This document shows, one piece after another, positions 7,161 to 21,251 of a DNA stretch of 64,000 bases (positions are counted from its first letter, which is position 1; each line of letters starts with the position of its first letter). Both the position numbers and the translations under genes were made by a program. Below the pieces are notes generated by a model. That model was not told where the DNA came from. It made no database searches and worked only from the letters and a program-made list of their open reading frames with translations. Source of the DNA: Alteracholeplasma palmae J233 (GTDB taxonomy: Bacteria > Bacillota_I > Bacilli_A > Acholeplasmatales > Acholeplasmataceae); contig NC_022538.1 of the NCBI RefSeq assembly GCF_000968055.1, forward strand, positions 1,399,499-1,463,498, given 5' to 3'.

Positions 7161-7184
7161 AAAAAACGGCTTTTTTTGCCGTTT
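7161..7184 (-). terminator. Terminator of the gltX-lipoprotein operon
   Basis: Read leftward, AAACGGC and GCCGTTT pair around a seven-base A loop and run into six T. The stem includes the stop codon of the lipoprotein gene. Confidence 0.85.
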
Positions 7185-8742
7185 ATACTATTTTTTCTAA
7201 AATCCAATTGTTTATTTTTTTATTCTCTAAATCAGTTTTGCTAAAAATTAAAGTGTATTCTGTATCTACTACTATGTTATCTACCTTAAATAAAGCTTCT
7301 TGATATAAATAGTTTTGAGAATAGAATTTATTTGCTAGTAAATCAGTCTTTATATTTTTTATCTCATCTGTTAGAATTTCAACAGTTCCTTTTCCAATAG
7401 CGTTTGTTACAACACTATTGTTTCCTGTTACTAATCCAACTTTAATTTCTTTAATGCCTTTTATATTTTGTTCTTTTCCAACTTCTATTTTAGCATCAAC
7501 AAATACATCAGCTAATAAATAACTTCTATCATGTCCAAAAATACCACCGATGTTTATTTCACTACTAGAAGGTGTTTTTTCATCTTTTAACTTTGTAAAT
7601 TCCTTTTGATCTGCTTTAATGTTACCACTAAAATAAAGGTTTGTCTCAGTTCCTTGATTAGGTCCGATAACTTTTCCAGCAATCCCACCTATGTTTAAGT
7701 TTCTTTGACTTGTTTCTGACTCTTCATAAGAAAAATCAACATCTATTAAAGTGTTCTTTACATAAACACGAGTCATTCTACTATGCTTATTCATATTACT
7801 ATCTTCATAAGAACCAATAACTGAACCAATATAAGCACTAGGCAATTTATCAATATCCACGTTGATAGTAACATTAGAAAGGGTGATATCAGAATAACTT
7901 CCTCTAGCATATCCAGAGATAGATCCTAAATATAAACTGCTGTATTGGCTTTTATGTTTTTGATTTATTTCACTGTTTTCTATAGTAATTTTAGAAAAGA
8001 CTGCAGAATTATAACTATAACTTGATATGATTGCGATATAGTTTGTCCCGGTATTACTCTTTTCCATATTATCTATTTTAATATTAGATAGTTTTATGTT
8101 AGTAATTTTTCCACTCACTCTACCAAATAAAGAAGTATGAGATTTACTATCATTTTTAAGTATTATATTTTTTATTTCATGACCATTACCATCAAAAACG
8201 CCAGTAAAGTCTTTATCATTAAAAATAGAATTTTTTAATTCTTCAGAATTAAAATCAATATCTGCATTCAATTTATAATAAGTTTCTAATAAAACTTCTT
8301 GTGTCTTTGTATCATCTGATTCCATTACTTTTTGAATTTCTAATAATTCTTCTTTAGTATTAATAAGATATGGATTTTCTTCATCACTACCTTTAAGTAG
8401 TGTCTTTTCATTTTTTTTGTATAACTCAACCACTTTTGTTTTGTGGGTGCCAAAAATAACAATTTGATAGTCAGTATCAGCCTTTAAATTTGTTAAACTG
8501 AATTCTTTATTTTTCTCTATTTTCTCATATCTAGATACTTCTTTATCATCATTAAACGCTATTGCATACATACTATTTGAAAGAAGTTGATTCTTTTCAT
8601 CTTCCCAATTTAATTTATATGTGATTTTCTTGAAACCAATTTTAGTATCAACTATTTCTAAATTAATATTAATACTATCTTGACAAGCGATTAAAGTAAA
8701 AATTGAAAATATTGATATTACAAATATTAGGAATTTTTTCAT
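7183..8742 (-). CDS. Surface lipoprotein with GLUG-like repeats
   Basis: 519 residues from the ATG at 8742, which has TTTGGAG six bases upstream. The first 20 residues are a lipoprotein signal peptide with lipobox LIAC, so the mature N-terminal Cys is expected to be lipid-anchored outside the membrane. After a Fibronectin-III-like stretch (about residues 30-105) comes ENPYLINTKEELLEIQ and FTGVFDGNGHEIKN. Several glycine-rich units follow (GSVIGSYED, IGGIAGKVIG, IGGIFGHDR, VGLVTGNNS) like the GLUG motif of bacterial surface proteins. It sits between gltX and cysS and is probably cotranscribed with gltX. The ligand or function is unknown. Confidence 0.8.
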   Translation of the reverse strand: MKKFLIFVISIFSIFTLIACQDSININLEIVDTKIGFKKITYKLNWEDEKNQLLSNSMYAIAFNDDKEVSRYEKIEKNKEFSLTNLKADTDYQIVIFGTHKTKVVELYKKNEKTLLKGSDEENPYLINTKEELLEIQKVMESDDTKTQEVLLETYYKLNADIDFNSEELKNSIFNDKDFTGVFDGNGHEIKNIILKNDSKSHTSLFGRVSGKITNIKLSNIKIDNMEKSNTGTNYIAIISSYSYNSAVFSKITIENSEINQKHKSQYSSLYLGSISGYARGSYSDITLSNVTINVDIDKLPSAYIGSVIGSYEDSNMNKHSRMTRVYVKNTLIDVDFSYEESETSQRNLNIGGIAGKVIGPNQGTETNLYFSGNIKADQKEFTKLKDEKTPSSSEINIGGIFGHDRSYLLADVFVDAKIEVGKEQNIKGIKEIKVGLVTGNNSVVTNAIGKGTVEILTDEIKNIKTDLLANKFYSQNYLYQEALFKVDNIVVDTEYTLIFSKTDLENKKINNWILEKIV

Positions 8743-8757
8743 TTTTATCTCCAAATT

Positions 8758-14311: not shown

Positions 14312-14827
14312 TCAATTGAATTCCCATTTAGCATATAAAACACGTGTGCTATCTGACATAATTTGATTATTTGCTAATTTAGTCTGATAGTTTGCATCAC
14401 AGTACCATCCTGAAAATATATATCCTGATTTTTGGTATTGGTAAGGGTTAAATGCATAACCTTTAGGTAGATTATCTGTGTGAACAGTTACCCACTTTAG
14501 AGAGCCAAGCACAACTATTTCAGTTGGATCGACAGTATTGCCATTCCCTAGTTGTCCATAATTATTATGTCCCCAAGCATAGAGTTCTTGATTATTATCT
14601 ATAGCAAGATTAAACTGATAAGATGAGGCTACTTTATGATAACCAGTTCCTGTCATTTCTTTATATTCAACTGATTATATTGATGCCCAAGCTGCTGTTT
14701 CATGCTGAACTTCTGTACTTTTAACTACGTTTGTATTATTGATTTGATCAATCCAATAAGAATGTGTAGCAGTCAAAGTTAGCATAATACATAAAATAGT
14801 TACAAACCCAATTGCTAGTTTCTTCAT
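14312..14827 (-). pseudogene. Truncated RCC1-repeat secreted protein with in-frame stop
   Basis: Starting at the ATG at 14827 (GGAGATG upstream) the frame encodes a signal-peptide-like start MKKLAIGFVTILCIMLTLTA then HSYWID, and reaches a TAA at 14675-14677 after 50 codons. The same frame continues with SVEYKEMTGTGYHKVA, one RCC1 repeat (LAIDNNQELYAWGHNNYGQLGNG in two segments) and an InlB-type repeat (SGYIFSGWYCD to VLYAKWEFN), stopping at TGA 14312-14314. The intact paralog at 15531-17036 aligns across the stop (YKELKQSFTTIT..YNLAID), showing one ancestral gene. Only one of about seven RCC1 blades remains, so both an internal deletion and a nonsense change are seen. Confidence 0.85.
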
Positions 14828-14843
14828 ATTGATCATCTCCTAA

Positions 14844-15356
14844 CTATATTGTTACTTCAAATTTAAGTGTAATTGTGATTTTTTTACCTGCGATTTTTGC
14901 ATATTCTGTAGCATTTGCTGGTTCACTAGTAAATTCAATCGTTGCTGATACGTTATTTAAAGGTGTTCCGATAATAATTTCTTTATTAGTCCATCCCTTT
15001 AAAGTAAATAGACTTGTTACATCATCTGTCCCAGCTTTAACTGATACTAACTGAGCTTTTAAACTTCCCTTTGTTCCTTCTGCGCCTACCCCATTCCAAG
15101 TAAAGTTGAATTTAGGTTGAATTGAGCTTACTGAAGTCCCTGGATTTTCTTTTCCAACTGGTACTAGTTTTCCTGTACCATTTATTTTTGATACATCTAA
15201 TGTGGTTGTTACTACTCCACCTGTTCCAATTTCAGCTTCTGTGTTTGCGTTACTACTTGTTCCTGTTGCGCTTGCTGCCCAGTATGCATATGCTCCACCT
15301 GTTAATGTAAGTATTGCCATGATAATTAGTATTGGTAAAATTAATTTTTTCTTCAT
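14844..15356 (-). CDS. Exported protein with SipW-type signal sequence, paralog A
   Basis: 170 residues. The N-terminus MKKKLILPILIIMAILTLTGGAYAYWA is a signal peptide whose Gly-Gly-aromatic end resembles TasA/camelysin-class, SipW-processed proteins. The mature part is Gly/Thr/Val-rich with shared blocks VVTTTLDV, LVPVGKENPG, WNGVGAEGTKGSLKAQLVSV, LFTLKG, IIIGTPL and EYAKIAGKKITITLKFEV, which recur in the proteins at 17055-17570 and 19870-20382. AAGGAG precedes the ATG. It is followed after 16 bp by the RCC1 pseudogene and preceded by a direct-repeat operator. The TasA analogy is inference; no sipW is in the window. Confidence 0.8.
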   Translation of the reverse strand: MKKKLILPILIIMAILTLTGGAYAYWAASATGTSSNANTEAEIGTGGVVTTTLDVSKINGTGKLVPVGKENPGTSVSSIQPKFNFTWNGVGAEGTKGSLKAQLVSVKAGTDDVTSLFTLKGWTNKEIIIGTPLNNVSATIEFTSEPANATEYAKIAGKKITITLKFEVTI

Positions 15357-15426: not shown

Positions 15427-15432
15427 AGTATA
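15427..15432 (-). promoter_or_regulatory. -10 box of paralog A promoter
   Basis: Read leftward TATACT, about 70 bases before the ATG. The hexamer 17 bp upstream is ACTAAA, far from TTGACA, so an activator is expected. The direct-repeat pair starts 27 bp upstream of this box. Confidence 0.65.
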
Positions 15433-15459: not shown

Positions 15460-15490
15460 ATGTTATGAAACCATGTTCAAATGTCATGAA
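15460..15490 (-). promoter_or_regulatory. LytTR-type direct-repeat operator 1
   Basis: ATGTTATGAA (15460-15469) and ATGTCATGAA (15481-15490) on the plus strand, start-to-start 21 bp, i.e. two helical turns. AgrA/LytTR regulators bind pairs of ~9-bp direct repeats with 12-13 bp between them next to weak -35 regions. The same repeat pair is found at 17669-17699 and 20448-20478. Confidence 0.75.
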
Positions 15491-15530
15491 CGCGTATTGT
15501 AATATAAATAAATGATATTTATCGGCTATT

Positions 15531-17036
15531 TTAAAGTGGTTTAATTTCCCATTTGGCGTATAAAACTCTATTTTCTACAGGATAAATCATACTTTCCTGA
15601 AATAACGTTATTCCTTTTGAATCTAAAAACCATCCTAAAAAAGTATATTTTTTCTTATAATTAGCTTCAAACTCTATCAAATCAATTGGATATTCATTAT
15701 AAACATCTTCAATATGGTAAGTTTCCCACTGGTTATTAATAGCTGTTGGCAAGACTTCTTCTAATTTACTATGTAATCCTAATTGTCCAGTTAGATCTGA
15801 ACCCATACCATATATTAACCCTTCAGAATTTTGTATTAGCGTATGTTTAACACCAAAACTAATCGATATATAGTTTGGATGATCGTCATTTACCATATTT
15901 AGTATTTTTTGCGGCGTAAAAATAATTAAATCATTACCTCGATAGCCTAAGTTACCTTTATTATTGAAACCCCATGTATAAACCTCATTTGTCTCTGTAA
16001 TAATAGCTGTTGCAGTCTTATCATGTTGGCTAAAAAAGGCATCTTTTATATTCATATTGCTTAAATCTGTGTTCTTAATAGGCTTTTTCACTATATCATT
16101 ATGATTTAAGCCTAATTCTGCATATGCATTTTTTCCCCAAACATATACGTTTTTTTCCTGAGTTATTATGAGTCCACAATCTTTTCCGACAGCATATTTT
16201 TTGATTATTTCTGTTTCTGGTAAAATAATTTTTTCTGGTGTATAGATTATTTTACTTTGTTCTATGCCAAGTTGATTGACATCATTTTTTCCCCAAACAT
16301 AAAGTTCACCTTGGTCAGATAAAGCTACTACGCCTTCTTTTTGTATTCCTAAAGTTGTTATATTTATTCCTTGTTCGTCTAAGTATTCTATTTTTTGTGG
16401 TTCATTATTTCCAACATTTGGAGAACCATTACATAACTTACCATTAGAATTCATGCCCCAACTATATACTTTTTTAGACTTAGTTACTATATAACTAGCA
16501 TAGTGTCCTGCATATATTTTTTCAATTTCAATGTTATTTTCTCTAAAAAAAGTGACTTCTCTTGGCTCATAGTAAACACTCTCACTATTTGATCCTAAAC
16601 CTAACTCTCCAACTGAATTATTGCCCCAACTATATAATTTTCCACTTTCTGTTAAAGCCAATGCATGGGAAAAACCTGCAGAAACATCTACAATTTTTTC
16701 ATTATTTAAACCTGTAGGTAATTCTGTTGGAAGATATAGTATTCTAACATCATCTGGTGCACATAAAATACCTTTATTATTAGCTCCCCACCCAAATAAA
16801 TTACCCTTAGCATCAATGGCTAGATTATAATCAGGTCCTGATGTAATAGTTGTGAAACTTTGTTTCAATTCTTTATATATAAACTGTTTTTTTGAAAGCC
16901 AATTTCCTATATAGACTTTGGATATACTATTTTTATCATTTCCTAGAACGTTATTTGCCCAATATGATCCTGATTGACTTAAAGAAAAAAGCATAACCAG
17001 AAAAAGGGCAATTATAAATTTAACCTTTTGTTTCAT
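15531..17036 (-). CDS. Secreted RCC1-repeat protein with InlB-type repeat
   Basis: 501 residues. The signal sequence ends SQSGSYWANN, sharing the S-Y-W motif of the neighbouring exported proteins. Seven RCC1-like units follow, marked by LFGWGANNKG, LYSWGNNSVGELGLG, VYSWGMNSNGKL, LYVWGKNDVNQLG, VYVWGKNAYAELGL, VYTWGFNNKGNLG and IYGMGSDLTGQLGL, enough for one beta-propeller. The C-terminal 70 residues (YTFLGWFLDS to RVLYAKWEI) match the Listeria-Bacteroides/InlB B repeat found on bacterial surface proteins. It lies 18 bp after the exported protein at 17055-17570 and is probably cotranscribed with it under the LytTR operator. The binding partner is unknown. Confidence 0.82.
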   Translation of the reverse strand: MKQKVKFIIALFLVMLFSLSQSGSYWANNVLGNDKNSISKVYIGNWLSKKQFIYKELKQSFTTITSGPDYNLAIDAKGNLFGWGANNKGILCAPDDVRILYLPTELPTGLNNEKIVDVSAGFSHALALTESGKLYSWGNNSVGELGLGSNSESVYYEPREVTFFRENNIEIEKIYAGHYASYIVTKSKKVYSWGMNSNGKLCNGSPNVGNNEPQKIEYLDEQGINITTLGIQKEGVVALSDQGELYVWGKNDVNQLGIEQSKIIYTPEKIILPETEIIKKYAVGKDCGLIITQEKNVYVWGKNAYAELGLNHNDIVKKPIKNTDLSNMNIKDAFFSQHDKTATAIITETNEVYTWGFNNKGNLGYRGNDLIIFTPQKILNMVNDDHPNYISISFGVKHTLIQNSEGLIYGMGSDLTGQLGLHSKLEEVLPTAINNQWETYHIEDVYNEYPIDLIEFEANYKKKYTFLGWFLDSKGITLFQESMIYPVENRVLYAKWEIKPL

Positions 17037-17054
17037 AATGTGCCCTCTTTTTTA

Positions 17055-17570
17055 TTATGGTGTAACAGTAAATTTAATTGTTAATGTAATTTGTTTGCCT
17101 GCAATTTTAGCATACTCTGCCGCTGTTGAAGGTTCATCTGTAAATTCAATATCCAGAGTAACTGTCTTAGGTGTTCCAACAACAAGTTCACTTGAACTTA
17201 GATTCTTTAGTGTAAATAAGTTTTCAAGTGTTTGATTTTCTGAATTAGTTACTGATACTATTTCATAACTAATCGTACCAGCTACACCTTCAGCACCAGA
17301 ACCAGTCCAATTCATTTGAAAACTAGTAGTAATTTTACTAACAGTTTCTCCTGACACTTCTCTTCCTACTGGAACTAAAGTTTGCGTATTAGCTGTTCCA
17401 TTGACTGTCACTTGAGTGGTAACAACTCCTGCTTGACCTATATTTAAGTTATTACTTGTATTAGTATTAGCACCATTGATGCTTGATGCCCAATAAGCAT
17501 AAGCTCCACCTGTTAATGTTAACAAGAGTAACATAATTACTATTGGCAAGAATAATTTTTTGTTTTTCAT
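17055..17570 (-). CDS. Exported protein with SipW-type signal sequence, paralog B
   Basis: 171 residues, clearly homologous to paralog A: signal MKNKKLFLPIVIMLLLLTL then GGAYAYWASS, blocks NIGQAGVVTTQVTV, LVPVGREVSG, WTGSGAEGVAGTISYEIVSV, LFTLKNL, LVVGTPKTV and EYAKIAGKQITLTIKF. About 140 mature residues with a beta-rich, Thr/Val/Gly composition. AGAGGAG precedes the ATG. It is first in a two-gene unit with the intact RCC1 protein and is divergent from the LytTR regulator and kinase genes; a direct-repeat operator lies between them. Confidence 0.82.
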   Translation of the reverse strand: MKNKKLFLPIVIMLLLLTLTGGAYAYWASSINGANTNTSNNLNIGQAGVVTTQVTVNGTANTQTLVPVGREVSGETVSKITTSFQMNWTGSGAEGVAGTISYEIVSVTNSENQTLENLFTLKNLSSSELVVGTPKTVTLDIEFTDEPSTAAEYAKIAGKQITLTIKFTVTP

Positions 17571-17635
17571 TTTATAATTCTCCTCTCATATTAATGAAAT
17601 TTTGTGATAAAATTATTTCATAATATTACAGTTAA

Positions 17636-17641
17636 ATTATA
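17636..17641 (-). promoter_or_regulatory. -10 box of paralog B promoter
   Basis: Read leftward TATAAT, about 65 bases before the ATG. The -35 position holds ATTAAA. The direct-repeat pair starts 27 bp upstream, the same spacing as at paralog A. Confidence 0.7.
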
Positions 17642-17668
17642 CTCAAGTTTATTTAAAGTTTAATATTC

Positions 17669-17699
17669 ATGTCATGAAAGGTCTTATTTATGATATGAA
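17669..17699 (-). promoter_or_regulatory. LytTR-type direct-repeat operator 2
   Basis: ATGTCATGAA (17669-17678) and ATGATATGAA (17690-17699) on the plus strand, spaced 21 bp start to start. It lies between the divergent paralog B gene and the LytTR regulator gene, so it could act on both. Confidence 0.75.
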
Positions 17700-17785
17700 T
17701 TGCATATTTTATTACAATCAATTTGCTTTTTTCTCATATAATCCTTACAATAAACGTATATACAACTAAAAAGAGAGGTTTTCAT

Positions 17786-18517
17786 ATGAATATAAACATT
17801 GCCTTGTGTGATGATGATAAAGATGTTTTATCTCACTATAAAAAAATGATTTCAAATATTTCTACACCTTATATTTTAAATATTAATACCTTTTTAAATG
17901 CTATGGACTTATTAGATGCAGTAGAAAATGACTTAAACTACTATCATCTTGTTTTACTAGATGTGGAAATGTCCAATTATAATGGGATAGAAATATCAAA
18001 ATCATTGCGAAAAAGCGGTTTTCAAAATGAAATCATTTTCCTAACAGATTATGTTGATTATGCTTATGAAGCTTTTGACTCTTATCCTTTTCAATATTTA
18101 CATAAAAAAACCTTGACCAAAGAAAAATTCACTTCAGTCTTAACTAAAGTCTTTGCTTTACAAGATAAAAAACAACGAGAGGTCTTTATCGCAAACACTA
18201 AAGGTGAAACTAAAATCATTCCCTATAGTTTTATTGCCTGTTTTGAGGCACAAGGCAGATACATAGTCATTTATTATGAGATGAATAAATCATTTGAGTT
18301 TATACATACTATCCAGGAATTAGAAAACAAACTTCCAAAGTCTGATTTTATTAGAGTCCACCGATCATATATCATAAACATGGCTTATTTAGATTCCTTT
18401 CAAGGCAACTACTTAAAACTTAAAAATGGTCTTATTATTCCAATAGGTGCTACAAGGTTAAAAGAAGTTAAAGATTTATTTACTAAATACTTAATTAAAC
18501 AAACAGAGGAGGAGTAA
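17786..18517 (+). CDS. LytTR-family response regulator (AgrA-like), RR1
   Basis: 243 residues from the ATG at 17786, which has AGAGAGG upstream; the longer in-frame extension lacks a site. The receiver domain (residues 1-120) has the acidic pocket CDDD, phospho-acceptor Asp59 in LLDVEM, and the late receiver segment DSYPFQYLHKK. The C-terminal LytTR DNA-binding domain (about 137-238) shows VFIANTKGETKIIPYSFI, FEAQGRYIVIYY and FIRVHRSYIINMAYLDSF. It is followed after seven bases by the AgrC-like kinase gene and so forms a two-component system with it. It probably binds the 21-bp-spaced repeats nearby. Confidence 0.93.
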   Translation: MNINIALCDDDKDVLSHYKKMISNISTPYILNINTFLNAMDLLDAVENDLNYYHLVLLDVEMSNYNGIEISKSLRKSGFQNEIIFLTDYVDYAYEAFDSYPFQYLHKKTLTKEKFTSVLTKVFALQDKKQREVFIANTKGETKIIPYSFIACFEAQGRYIVIYYEMNKSFEFIHTIQELENKLPKSDFIRVHRSYIINMAYLDSFQGNYLKLKNGLIIPIGATRLKEVKDLFTKYLIKQTEEE

Positions 18518-18524
18518 TCATATT

Positions 18525-19847
18525 ATGGGATTTATTATTGGTTTTATCGCTATTTTTATTTATTTTAGAAAAAATTTCAAAATTAGAAAACAAAAATGGT
18601 ATGATTTTGTCATTGCTGGTTTAGCTTTTATTGCGTATACAATTGCTAGTTATTACATAGATTTCGGCTTTTATCATTTATTATTAATTTTTGCAGTCCA
18701 TGTTTCCATCTATTACCTTGCAGTTGGTATGCGCTGGATCGAAGCTTCTTTTGCAGGTACACTTCTACTCTTTACTTTCTATTCTACGCGAGGTGTCATT
18801 CTTTCTATTTATGCCTTAATAAAAAATCAAAGCATTGCTGAAATTTCTAATTCTAGCGATGCCTTGATTATTAGTCATATTGCGTCTATAGTAGGTTTCT
18901 TCATACTTCTTGTTTTTGTTAAATTTATGAAAAGAGAAAAATTTGTTTTACTTTTCTCAGTTAAAAGACAAACTATTTTCTTAACCTTATATACTTTAAT
19001 TGAAGTTTGCTATATCTATATTATCAATCAAGGGCGTTATGTCTTAACGAATAATATTTGGTATTCTTTAACTTATCTTTCTACAAGTATTCTTTCGATT
19101 GCGGTATTTGGTTATATTTTACATAACATCATTAGATTAATAAAAACAATTGAAAATGAAATATATACTGTTAGATTAGAAGAACAATTAGATAATCAAA
19201 TTATTCATTACGAACAATATCAATCTTATATCAAAGAACTAGCAAAGTTTAAGCATGATCATGGTAACCTGATGAAATCTCTTAAACAATTAATTAAGTC
19301 TAACAATAATGAAAAAGCCCTAGAATTACTTGATGAATCTATTGAAGACGATATTTTTGAAGCCATGTCAGCTATTGAAAAAACATCTAATTCATTTATC
19401 GTAGACGCAATCATCTTTGATTATGCTAATAAATGTAAAATCAATCATATAGATTTTAAATCAAGTGTTAAATTTCCTAATAGTATTAACTTTTCACAGT
19501 TAGAATTAATGAAAATTTTTAGTAATGTTTTAAGTAACGCTCTTGAAGCATCTATTAAAAGTCCTGAAAATAAAAGATTTATTACAATAAGCAGTAAAGC
19601 TGTCTCTAACTGGCTTGTGATAAAAATTTCAAACAATTATGAAACAGATATTATTGTAGAAGATGATCAGTATATCACCAGTAAATCAGATAAAGTTTTA
19701 CACGGGTTTGGACTTAGAATTATAAATGATATTATTACTAAAAAGGGGGGACTTGTAAAATTCTTTATTGATAAAAATAAAAAAGTCTTTTCAGTACAAC
19801 TCTCGATTCCTAAAACTACATTAGATAATCAAAAAGATGATGAATAA
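18525..19847 (+). CDS. AgrC/ComD-like sensor histidine kinase
   Basis: 440 residues. The first ~205 residues carry six or so membrane spans with short loops, as in peptide-sensing HPK10 kinases. A coiled-coil-like stretch leads to the H-box LAKFKHDHGN (likely His244, compare FRHDYxN in AgrC). The N-box is SNVLSNALEAS (about residues 333-343) and the G-box LHGFGLRII (392-400), forming a HATPase_c/GHKL domain. GGAGGAG precedes the ATG. It pairs with RR1. No AgrB or AgrD-like gene is seen next to it, so the signal is unknown. Confidence 0.92.
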   Translation: MGFIIGFIAIFIYFRKNFKIRKQKWYDFVIAGLAFIAYTIASYYIDFGFYHLLLIFAVHVSIYYLAVGMRWIEASFAGTLLLFTFYSTRGVILSIYALIKNQSIAEISNSSDALIISHIASIVGFFILLVFVKFMKREKFVLLFSVKRQTIFLTLYTLIEVCYIYIINQGRYVLTNNIWYSLTYLSTSILSIAVFGYILHNIIRLIKTIENEIYTVRLEEQLDNQIIHYEQYQSYIKELAKFKHDHGNLMKSLKQLIKSNNNEKALELLDESIEDDIFEAMSAIEKTSNSFIVDAIIFDYANKCKINHIDFKSSVKFPNSINFSQLELMKIFSNVLSNALEASIKSPENKRFITISSKAVSNWLVIKISNNYETDIIVEDDQYITSKSDKVLHGFGLRIINDIITKKGGLVKFFIDKNKKVFSVQLSIPKTTLDNQKDDE

Positions 19848-19873
19848 CAATTTATTCACCATCTTTTTTTTAT
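19834..19873 (+). terminator. Terminator of the RR1-kinase operon
   Basis: AAAGATG..TGAATAA pairs with TTATTCA..CATCTTT (19834-19867), followed by T's. It overlaps the kinase stop codon. Confidence 0.85.
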
Positions 19874-20382
19874 GCGATATTTTCTGCAATGACTTCAAAT
19901 TCAAGTTTAATAATAATCTTGCTCTCTATTAATTTTAAATACTCTTCTTTGTTTTCTGGCTCATTTTTAAAAGAAACTTCTATTTCATATACTTTTTTAG
20001 TACCTGCAACAATTTCTTCTTCATTTACTAATGATACTTTAAATAAATAATTTAATCTTTCATTAGAAATTTTTTGATTTATATCCTCTAATTGTACGTT
20101 TACTTTTAAAGTACCTCTGGCTCCGCTTGCTCCAGTACCTGTCCATAAAACATCATATTTAAATATTTGTGAAGATTCTCCCTCTATTCCTTCTGGAACC
20201 AAAATCTCTATTTTTGAGTTATCCATAACTTGTAATGTAGTATTTACTTTCTGTGCATCTTTAATTTTAATAAAGTAATCACTATTATTTATATTATTTT
20301 GATTGATAGAAAGAAAGATGATTAACACGAGTAATATTAACAAGGGTATTAGAATATATAAATTCTTTTTTATTTTATCCAT
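19870..20382 (-). CDS. Membrane-anchored homolog of the exported proteins, paralog C
   Basis: 170 residues from the ATG at 20382 (AGAGAGGTGAG upstream); upstream codons fall in the promoter. Residues 1-30 form one hydrophobic span (KNLYILIPLLILLVLIIF) but the GGAYAYW cleavage region of paralogs A and B is missing, so it may stay anchored. The body keeps the family blocks: ILVPEGIEGESSQ, LWTGTGASGARGTLKVNV, LNYLFKVSLV, IVAGTKKV, and EEYLKLIESKIIIKLEFEV. It lies between the kinase and RR2 with its own direct-repeat operator and has no RCC1 partner. Confidence 0.78.
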   Translation of the reverse strand: MDKIKKNLYILIPLLILLVLIIFLSINQNNINNSDYFIKIKDAQKVNTTLQVMDNSKIEILVPEGIEGESSQIFKYDVLWTGTGASGARGTLKVNVQLEDINQKISNERLNYLFKVSLVNEEEIVAGTKKVYEIEVSFKNEPENKEEYLKLIESKIIIKLEFEVIAENIA

Positions 20383-20412
20383 AAATCTCACCTCTCTGCT
20401 TAAAGCACCTAG

Positions 20413-20418
20413 ATTATA
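20413..20418 (-). promoter_or_regulatory. -10 box of paralog C promoter
   Basis: Read leftward TATAAT, about 30 bases before the ATG. The -35 position is ACAAAA. The operator starts 29 bp upstream. Confidence 0.65.
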
Positions 20419-20447
20419 CCCTATCGATGGCATCATTTTGTATGTGG

Positions 20448-20478
20448 ATGTCATGAAAAGTGGTTTTTATGTCGTGAA
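20448..20478 (-). promoter_or_regulatory. LytTR-type direct-repeat operator 3
   Basis: ATGTCATGAA (20448-20457) and ATGTCGTGAA (20469-20478) on the plus strand, spaced 21 bp start to start. It lies between divergent paralog C and RR2. Confidence 0.75.
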
Positions 20479-20534: not shown

Positions 20535-21251
20535 TTGAAAATAAACATAGCCATCTTGGATGATGATGAAAAGGTATTAAATAATTACAATGAGGTAATT
20601 AATAACTTAGATTCAAATAATAACTTTAAAACAGACCTCTTTTCTAAGGAAAGAACTTTTTTTCATAAAGCAATATCAGATATCAATTTTTATCATATAT
20701 TAATTCTTGACATTAATTTAGGACAAAAAAATGGGATAGAAACAGCTAAAGAACTGAGAAATAAAGGTTATATGAATGAAATTATTTTTATAACTAACTA
20801 TGTAGACTATGCTTTCGATGCTTTTGATGCCTATCCTTTTCATTACTTATTAAAAGAAACTACTAGTGAATCTGAATTCTCATCTATTTTACTTAAAGCC
20901 GTGAATACTCAGATAGAAAAACAAAGTGATATTTTTAGAGCAACCTCTAAGGGTAAAACTATTCTTATTCCTTATCATAAGATTGAGTATTTTGAAGTTA
21001 TTGGCAGATACATAACTGTCTTTTATGATAATAAAAGCTTTAAATTCATAGATACTATTACACATTTAGAACAAAAACTTCCTCAAAAGAAATTTGCACG
21101 AGTGCATAGATCCTATATTATAAATATGCGTTTTATAGATTCTTTCCAAGAAGAATATCTCTTTTTAAGAAATGGAAAATTAATTCCTTTGGGTAAAACT
21201 CGTATTCAAGAAACAAAAAAACTCTTTTCAGAGTTTTTAAGTTTATCATAA
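20535..21251 (+). CDS. LytTR-family response regulator, RR2 (no adjacent own kinase)
   Basis: 238 residues. It starts with TTG at 20535 behind AAGGATGTGAG; no suitable ATG is present. Receiver domain: LDDDE acidic pocket, Asp59 in LILDINLG, FDAYPFHYLLKE. LytTR domain: FRATSKGKTILIPYHKIEYF, VIGRYITVFYD, ARVHRSYIINMRFIDSF. It is closely similar to RR1, so it probably arose by duplication. No separate kinase gene accompanies it; the kinase at 18525 could serve both. It may read the same direct repeats and modulate the same promoters. Confidence 0.92.
   Translation: MKINIAILDDDEKVLNNYNEVINNLDSNNNFKTDLFSKERTFFHKAISDINFYHILILDINLGQKNGIETAKELRNKGYMNEIIFITNYVDYAFDAFDAYPFHYLLKETTSESEFSSILLKAVNTQIEKQSDIFRATSKGKTILIPYHKIEYFEVIGRYITVFYDNKSFKFIDTITHLEQKLPQKKFARVHRSYIINMRFIDSFQEEYLFLRNGKLIPLGKTRIQETKKLFSEFLSLS

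Follow-up and report, generated by a model that had tools for sequence, protein, structure and literature searches.

Tandem direct repeats as likely LytTR-type activator operators of four TasA-like exported protein genes in Alteracholeplasma palmae

The AgrA/agr P2-P3 system of Staphylococcus aureus pairs a LytTR response regulator, for which the consensus is ACAGTTAAG, with the GHKL kinase AgrC. Related arrangements include the HdrRM and BrsRM systems of Streptococcus, with direct repeats of ~9 bp separated by a 12-bp gap, and the YpdB/yhjX operator of Escherichia coli, with direct repeats of GGCATTTCAT. To our knowledge, few regulons have been defined in cell-wall-less bacteria, and Alteracholeplasma palmae is a cell-wall-less mollicute. 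A LytTR operator is made up of two repeats, each 9-11 nt long, with 11-13 nt between them, and there is no common consensus (PMC4847170); such operators are placed close upstream of the -35 element (PMC6193735), and in AgrA the FhRhHRS motif contacts the DNA (PMC4227749). In Bacillus subtilis, the operon tapA-sipW-tasA is under SinR (PMC9674648).

The preliminary description of a 64-kb stretch of A. palmae DNA (genome positions 1399499-1463498 of a single-contig genome; the whole stretch analyzed here, referred to as the window) had reported three tandem repeat pairs, each 21 bp from start to start, and all three are read directly where it placed them (Table 1). On the forward strand, S1 reads ATGTTATGAA-N11-ATGTCATGAA from 15460, S2 reads ATGTCATGAA-N11-ATGATATGAA from 17669, and S3 reads ATGTCATGAA-N11-ATGTCGTGAA from 20448, with zero, one, and one mismatches, respectively, to the pattern ATGTYATGAA-N11-ATGTYATGAA. 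At up to three mismatches, the window holds five matches to this pattern (two of which are overlapping readings of the same sites) compared with 0.05 expected from shuffles. At up to one mismatch, the A. palmae genome (1,554,229 bp) holds S1-S3 only, and 87 other genomes of the family (~106 Mb, summed from rounded sizes) hold two matches. A whole-genome scan gave a fourth site, S4, at genome positions 724358-724388, 0.69 Mb from the window, which was first found independently as a match with two mismatches to the original pattern; both mismatches lie in its distal half-site, which is weak. In all four sites, the half-sites are 10-nt repeats separated by a gap of 11 nt (n = 4).

Table 1. Coordinates of features in the window
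Feature	Coordinates	Strand	Description
Short RCC1-like exported protein gene	14312..14836	(-)	After P1; broken by one in-frame TAA
P1, exported TasA-like protein	14844..15356	(-)	170 aa; signal peptide ending GGAYAYW
P1 -10 box TATACT	15427..15432	(-)	27 nt after S1, no -35; putative promoter
Operator S1	15460..15490	(-)	TTCATGACAT-N11-TTCATAACAT toward exported gene P1; would put P1 under the site
RCC1-repeat exported protein	15531..17036	(-)	501 aa; C-terminal List_Bact_rpt; downstream of P2
P2, exported TasA-like protein	17055..17570	(-)	171 aa; AlphaFold2 model and Foldseek
P2 -10 box TATAAT	17636..17641	(-)	27 nt after S2, no -35; putative promoter
Operator S2	17669..17699	(-)	Before exported gene P2
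Possible RR1 promoter TTGCTT-17-TACAAT	17723..17751	(+)	Putative; element in common with RR4 promoter
RR1, response regulator	17786..18517	(+)	Receiver and LytTR; LytTR 67.8 bits, Response_reg 44.1 bits; FIRVHRS
HK1, membrane sensor kinase	18525..19847	(+)	GHKL, HATPase_c_5 75.2 bits; phosphoacceptor region KFKHD
P3, divergent exported TasA-like paralogue	19870..20382	(-)	170 aa; signal peptide without AYW motif
P3 -10 box TATAAT	20413..20418	(-)	29 nt after S3, no -35; putative promoter
Possible weak third half-site	20427..20436	(-)	Putative; in register with S3; 3 mismatches over the pair
Operator S3	20448..20478	(-)	Before exported gene P3
RR2, LytTR response regulator	20535..21251	(+)	LytTR 68.3 bits; no adjacent kinase; 48% identical to RR1

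The genome-wide work consisted of pattern and profile searches. A consensus read toward the exported genes and derived from S1-S4, TTSAYRWCAK-N10-TTTCATRACAT, matches exactly four places in the genome (S1-S4) with zero mismatches, and the next-best match, with two mismatches, lies within a V-type ATPase gene; because the consensus was drawn from the sites themselves, we place weight on the gap to the next match and not on the zero mismatches. Genome sites at three mismatches were mostly not clearly above the reversed-pattern control. Further, a blind search for the best 31-mer block, which used no prior consensus, recovered exactly the four operators and scored 142.5 bits compared with 112.1 +/- 3.3 bits in shuffles (maximum, 123.5). 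A profile search found exactly four members of the exported family in A. palmae (P1-P3 and the fourth copy, P4), and the start codon of each lies 65-103 nt after a site. An operator is present at every exported paralogue and clearly at no other gene; the genome-wide repeat search suggested in the preliminary description came out strongly in its favor, with four sites, each before an exported-family gene. The sites, their number, geometry, and conservation, and their gene neighborhood are direct readings of the DNA.

The sites also stand in a fixed relation to the putative promoters of the exported genes. The preliminary description had placed -10 boxes 27, 27, and 29 nt from S1-S3, without a usable -35 element, and this was borne out; at S4, the -10 box of P4 (TATACT) follows the site by 28 nt in the exported-gene direction. 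No hexamer with more than a 3/6 match to TTGACA was found as a -35 element at a spacing of 16-18 bp. The probability of the -10 placement at all four sites is ~1e-7 in shuffled linkers, with the choice of window allowed for. A -10 box at 27-29 nt sets the operator at about -70 to -40, and the exported-gene promoters are probably poor at firing alone and look activator-dependent. The assignment of LytTR-type geometry to the repeats agrees with the published operator rules (PMC4847170, PMC6193735). Overall, we consider it likely that the tandem repeats are operators of LytTR (AgrA/VirR-type) activators for the exported genes.

All four sites precede paralogous genes, and the locus at S4 is a duplicate of that in the window, with kinases that are 68% identical; the repeats could, in principle, be inert remnants of a recent gene duplication. 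Comparison of S1-S4 anchored on the operator gives pairwise identities of 73% and 93% for the two half-sites, whereas the spacer (36%), the upstream flank (36%), and the linker (38%) have diverged to near background. Site conservation is here that between paralogues of one genome, in place of that between species. The paralogy of P1-P3 that had been claimed holds, with identities of 50% and 28-29%, and P3, the most divergent (BLASTP E = 8e-18 against P4), still has a site although it is only 28-29% identical to the others, which points to selection. Half-sites that are kept amid a spacer, linker, and flanks near background indicate a footprint and not a duplication remnant, and we find the remnant explanation, which the footprint disfavors, hardly credible.

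We next consider which regulators may act at these operators. RR1 and RR2 score above the Pfam cut-offs for PF00072 and PF04397. In the paralogous locus (L042; genome 719000-732000), S4 separates an RCC1-like gene and the exported gene from the genes for LytTR regulator RR4 and kinase HK4. RR4 has receiver and LytTR domains, aligns throughout with RR1 and RR2, and is 68% identical to RR1, as HK4 is to HK1; in both cases, the kinase gene follows the regulator gene. The FhRhHRS motif is kept in RR1, RR2, and RR4, as FIRVHRS and FARVHRS. The locus at S4 is bordered by a likely transposase cluster (L042 7833-9209).

LytTR regulator genes adjoin three of the four operators, and the sites might instead serve on the + strand as autoregulation operators of the regulator genes, with control of the exported genes being secondary. 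LytTR systems are often autoregulated (PMC6193735), and S2 and S3 do lie directly upstream of RR1 and RR2. However, S1 has no regulator gene on its + side, yet it is the most perfect repeat among the sites. Further, the proposed promoters of RR1 and RR4, which have the element CAATCAATTTGCTTTTTT in common, start ~24 and ~150 nt from the S2 and S4 operators, respectively, compared with the constant 27-29 nt to the exported-gene -10 box at all four sites. This variable distance, together with S1, means that regulation of the RR genes from these sites, although possible, is not supported, and we regard autoregulation as the main role of the sites as very unlikely.

A further alternative is that the operators exist but that the transcription factor binding them is not one of the adjacent LytTR regulators. 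The half-site has a partly palindromic core, TCATGA, and is not the AgrA consensus, and LytTR binding is itself predicted from sequence. We nevertheless consider another factor unlikely: as well as adjoining LytTR regulator genes at three of four places, the sites have the spacing, the tandem orientation, and the place before a -35-less promoter that are traits of LytTR operators. Further, a fifth, weaker pair (TTTAGAACA / TTTCATAACA, with three mismatches; genome 898056-898086, L043 7057-7087) is likewise located between the gene for RR3, a LytTR regulator, and a divergent membrane-protein gene, with a -10-like TAAAGT at 27 nt. RR3 belongs to a further LytTR pair, called the fourth, which is more distant from the others, and a relation of its weak repeat pair to the operators is suggestive only.

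The proposed targets resemble TasA-type fiber subunits. Pfam and NCBIfam offered no fitting family for the exported proteins, their TasA/camelysin models matched none of 16 family members, and a search of PDB sequences with the family found no relative. An AlphaFold2 model of P2, built with 16 relatives, predicts a β-sandwich after the signal peptide (pLDDT 74), and its only PDB match under an E value of 0.001 in Foldseek was the TasA fiber 8aur; this match is weak, with an E value of 6.3e-5 but a TM score of 0.34 and 14% identity. VIA-align matched the model to generic sandwiches only (Z up to 6.7), and the absence of TasA from its top rows was not counted against TasA. Residues 30-50 of the model, after the signal peptide, have a pLDDT <50, which would fit a donor strand but is no evidence of one. 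In relatives, homologues of the exported proteins lie in one cassette between GAPDH and an ung-like gene, and this cassette also holds candidate SipW-type peptidases, recognized by appearance only and not by model search; no LytTR gene was found among the inspected neighbors of the cassette. A. palmae has three matches to TIGR02228 (two over the cut-off), one of which occupies the corresponding GAPDH-ung position, where no TasA-like gene is present. As the SipW-type peptidases of A. palmae lie away from the exported genes, the link is not physical here. We conclude that the exported proteins look like TasA-type fiber subunits from their signal peptide, from the linkage to SipW-type candidates in relatives, and, weakly, from the predicted fold, which is a supported resemblance and not proven membership.

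RCC1-like genes follow three of the four exported genes (P1, P2, and P4), and the one after P1 is broken by a TAA after 53 codons, with the rest of the frame open. We note three observations on secreted proteins and their peptidases. First, the GAPDH-ung neighborhood is conserved (L108 4066-8322, L084-L103), and A. palmae keeps one SipW-type peptidase gene there. Second, a separate region (L107; genome 574000-592000) groups SipW-type peptidases with several small exported proteins; the latter have signal peptides of the FAW type, are not matched by the TasA-like profile, and have no operator. Third, the window encodes, at 7183-8754, a predicted lipoprotein-like secreted protein of 523 aa without a clear family match.

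The locus had been thought to be self-contained. We do not accept this, because the second locus has paralogues of the regulator, kinase, and exported protein as well as an operator of its own and the likely SipW-type peptidases lie elsewhere. The view that such a system is unusual for a wall-less bacterium was only partly right: LytTR domains occur in 46 of 88 Acholeplasmataceae genomes, but in none of the 29 of the small-genome genus g11, presumably the phytoplasmas. No genome in the family or order was found to keep regulator and target together in intact form, and neither RR1 nor HK1 retrieved a relative in scans of GTDB contigs. One genome of the same genus (G009) is without LytTR, the exported family, and the operator site. 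In another genus, a genome (G014) has a decayed locus (L122 9263-11316) in which an intact kinase with 55% identity to HK1 lies next to RCC1 fragments and no regulator, exported gene, or operator was found; this kinase beside an RCC1-like remnant indicates that the kinase and the RCC1 partner go together beyond A. palmae. Within the family, no such repeat is seen in the intergenic DNA that precedes 16 other LytTR regulator genes. In the literature, we found no paper joining Acholeplasma and LytTR and, judged by title and abstract, nothing relevant joining Acholeplasma and TasA.

We propose that the repeats, read as TTCATRACAT-N11-TTCATRACAT toward the exported genes, would act as LytTR activator operators in the following way. 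Membrane kinases of the GHKL type, HK1 and its paralogue HK4, would sense a signal and phosphorylate RR1 and RR4, and perhaps also RR2, which is an orphan. Bound as a tandem dimer to one face of the DNA, at half-sites that are separated by two helical turns and lie at about -70 to -40, the regulator would then recruit RNA polymerase to promoters with a good -10 box and no -35 element. The output would be the four TasA-like exported proteins, which SipW-type signal peptidases would mature; in three cases, the gene for a secreted RCC1-like protein (one now broken) comes after the exported gene. In this scheme, we infer binding, the identity of the regulator, phosphorylation, activation rather than repression, the signal, and fiber formation; the choice of regulator, the signal, and the filaments reach beyond the operator reading. 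The fullest form of the proposal, TasA-type filaments on a bare membrane with a secreted RCC1-like propeller partner and an AgrA-like LytTR circuit over two loci, is tentative and, in our view, doubtful. TasA-like proteins are unexpected where no wall anchors a matrix, and such exported proteins, with likely SipW-type processing, appear in about one-third of the sampled Acholeplasmataceae (profile matches in 30 of 88 genomes). A single genome yields the operators (n = 4), their consensus, their targets, and the candidate regulators, all of which are open to direct testing.

Compared with known systems, the A. palmae loci share with agr a receiver-LytTR regulator, a GHKL membrane kinase, and control of exported proteins (the last predicted here), as well as tandem direct repeats at a distance of ~21 bp, placed upstream of promoters whose -35/-10 arrangement is suboptimal. 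Unlike in agr, the repeat sequence differs, with a half-site not close to the AgrA consensus quoted above or to the VirR consensus, and the operators face exported genes, whereas those in agr face a regulatory RNA. AgrB (PF04647) has no match in the A. palmae genome, which leaves no evidence of an Agr-type peptide, and we reject an Agr-type peptide system. YpdB/yhjX also combines a LytTR regulator with direct repeats containing TTTCAT, compared with TTTCATRACAT in the proximal half-sites here; this resemblance is short and may be due to chance, and YpdB/yhjX differs in having a LytS-type kinase, a transporter as target, and no exported protein family. The exported jelly-roll protein (predicted here) and the SipW-type signal peptide recall tapA-sipW-tasA of B. 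subtilis; in A. palmae, however, SipW is unlinked, an RCC1-like partner takes the place of TapA, and the putative regulator is LytTR and not SinR. Finally, the Streptococcus LytTR Regulatory Systems (HdrRM and BrsRM) likewise have direct repeats close upstream of the promoter, but in them the partner of the LytTR protein is a membrane inhibitor, whereas A. palmae has a receiver domain and a kinase.
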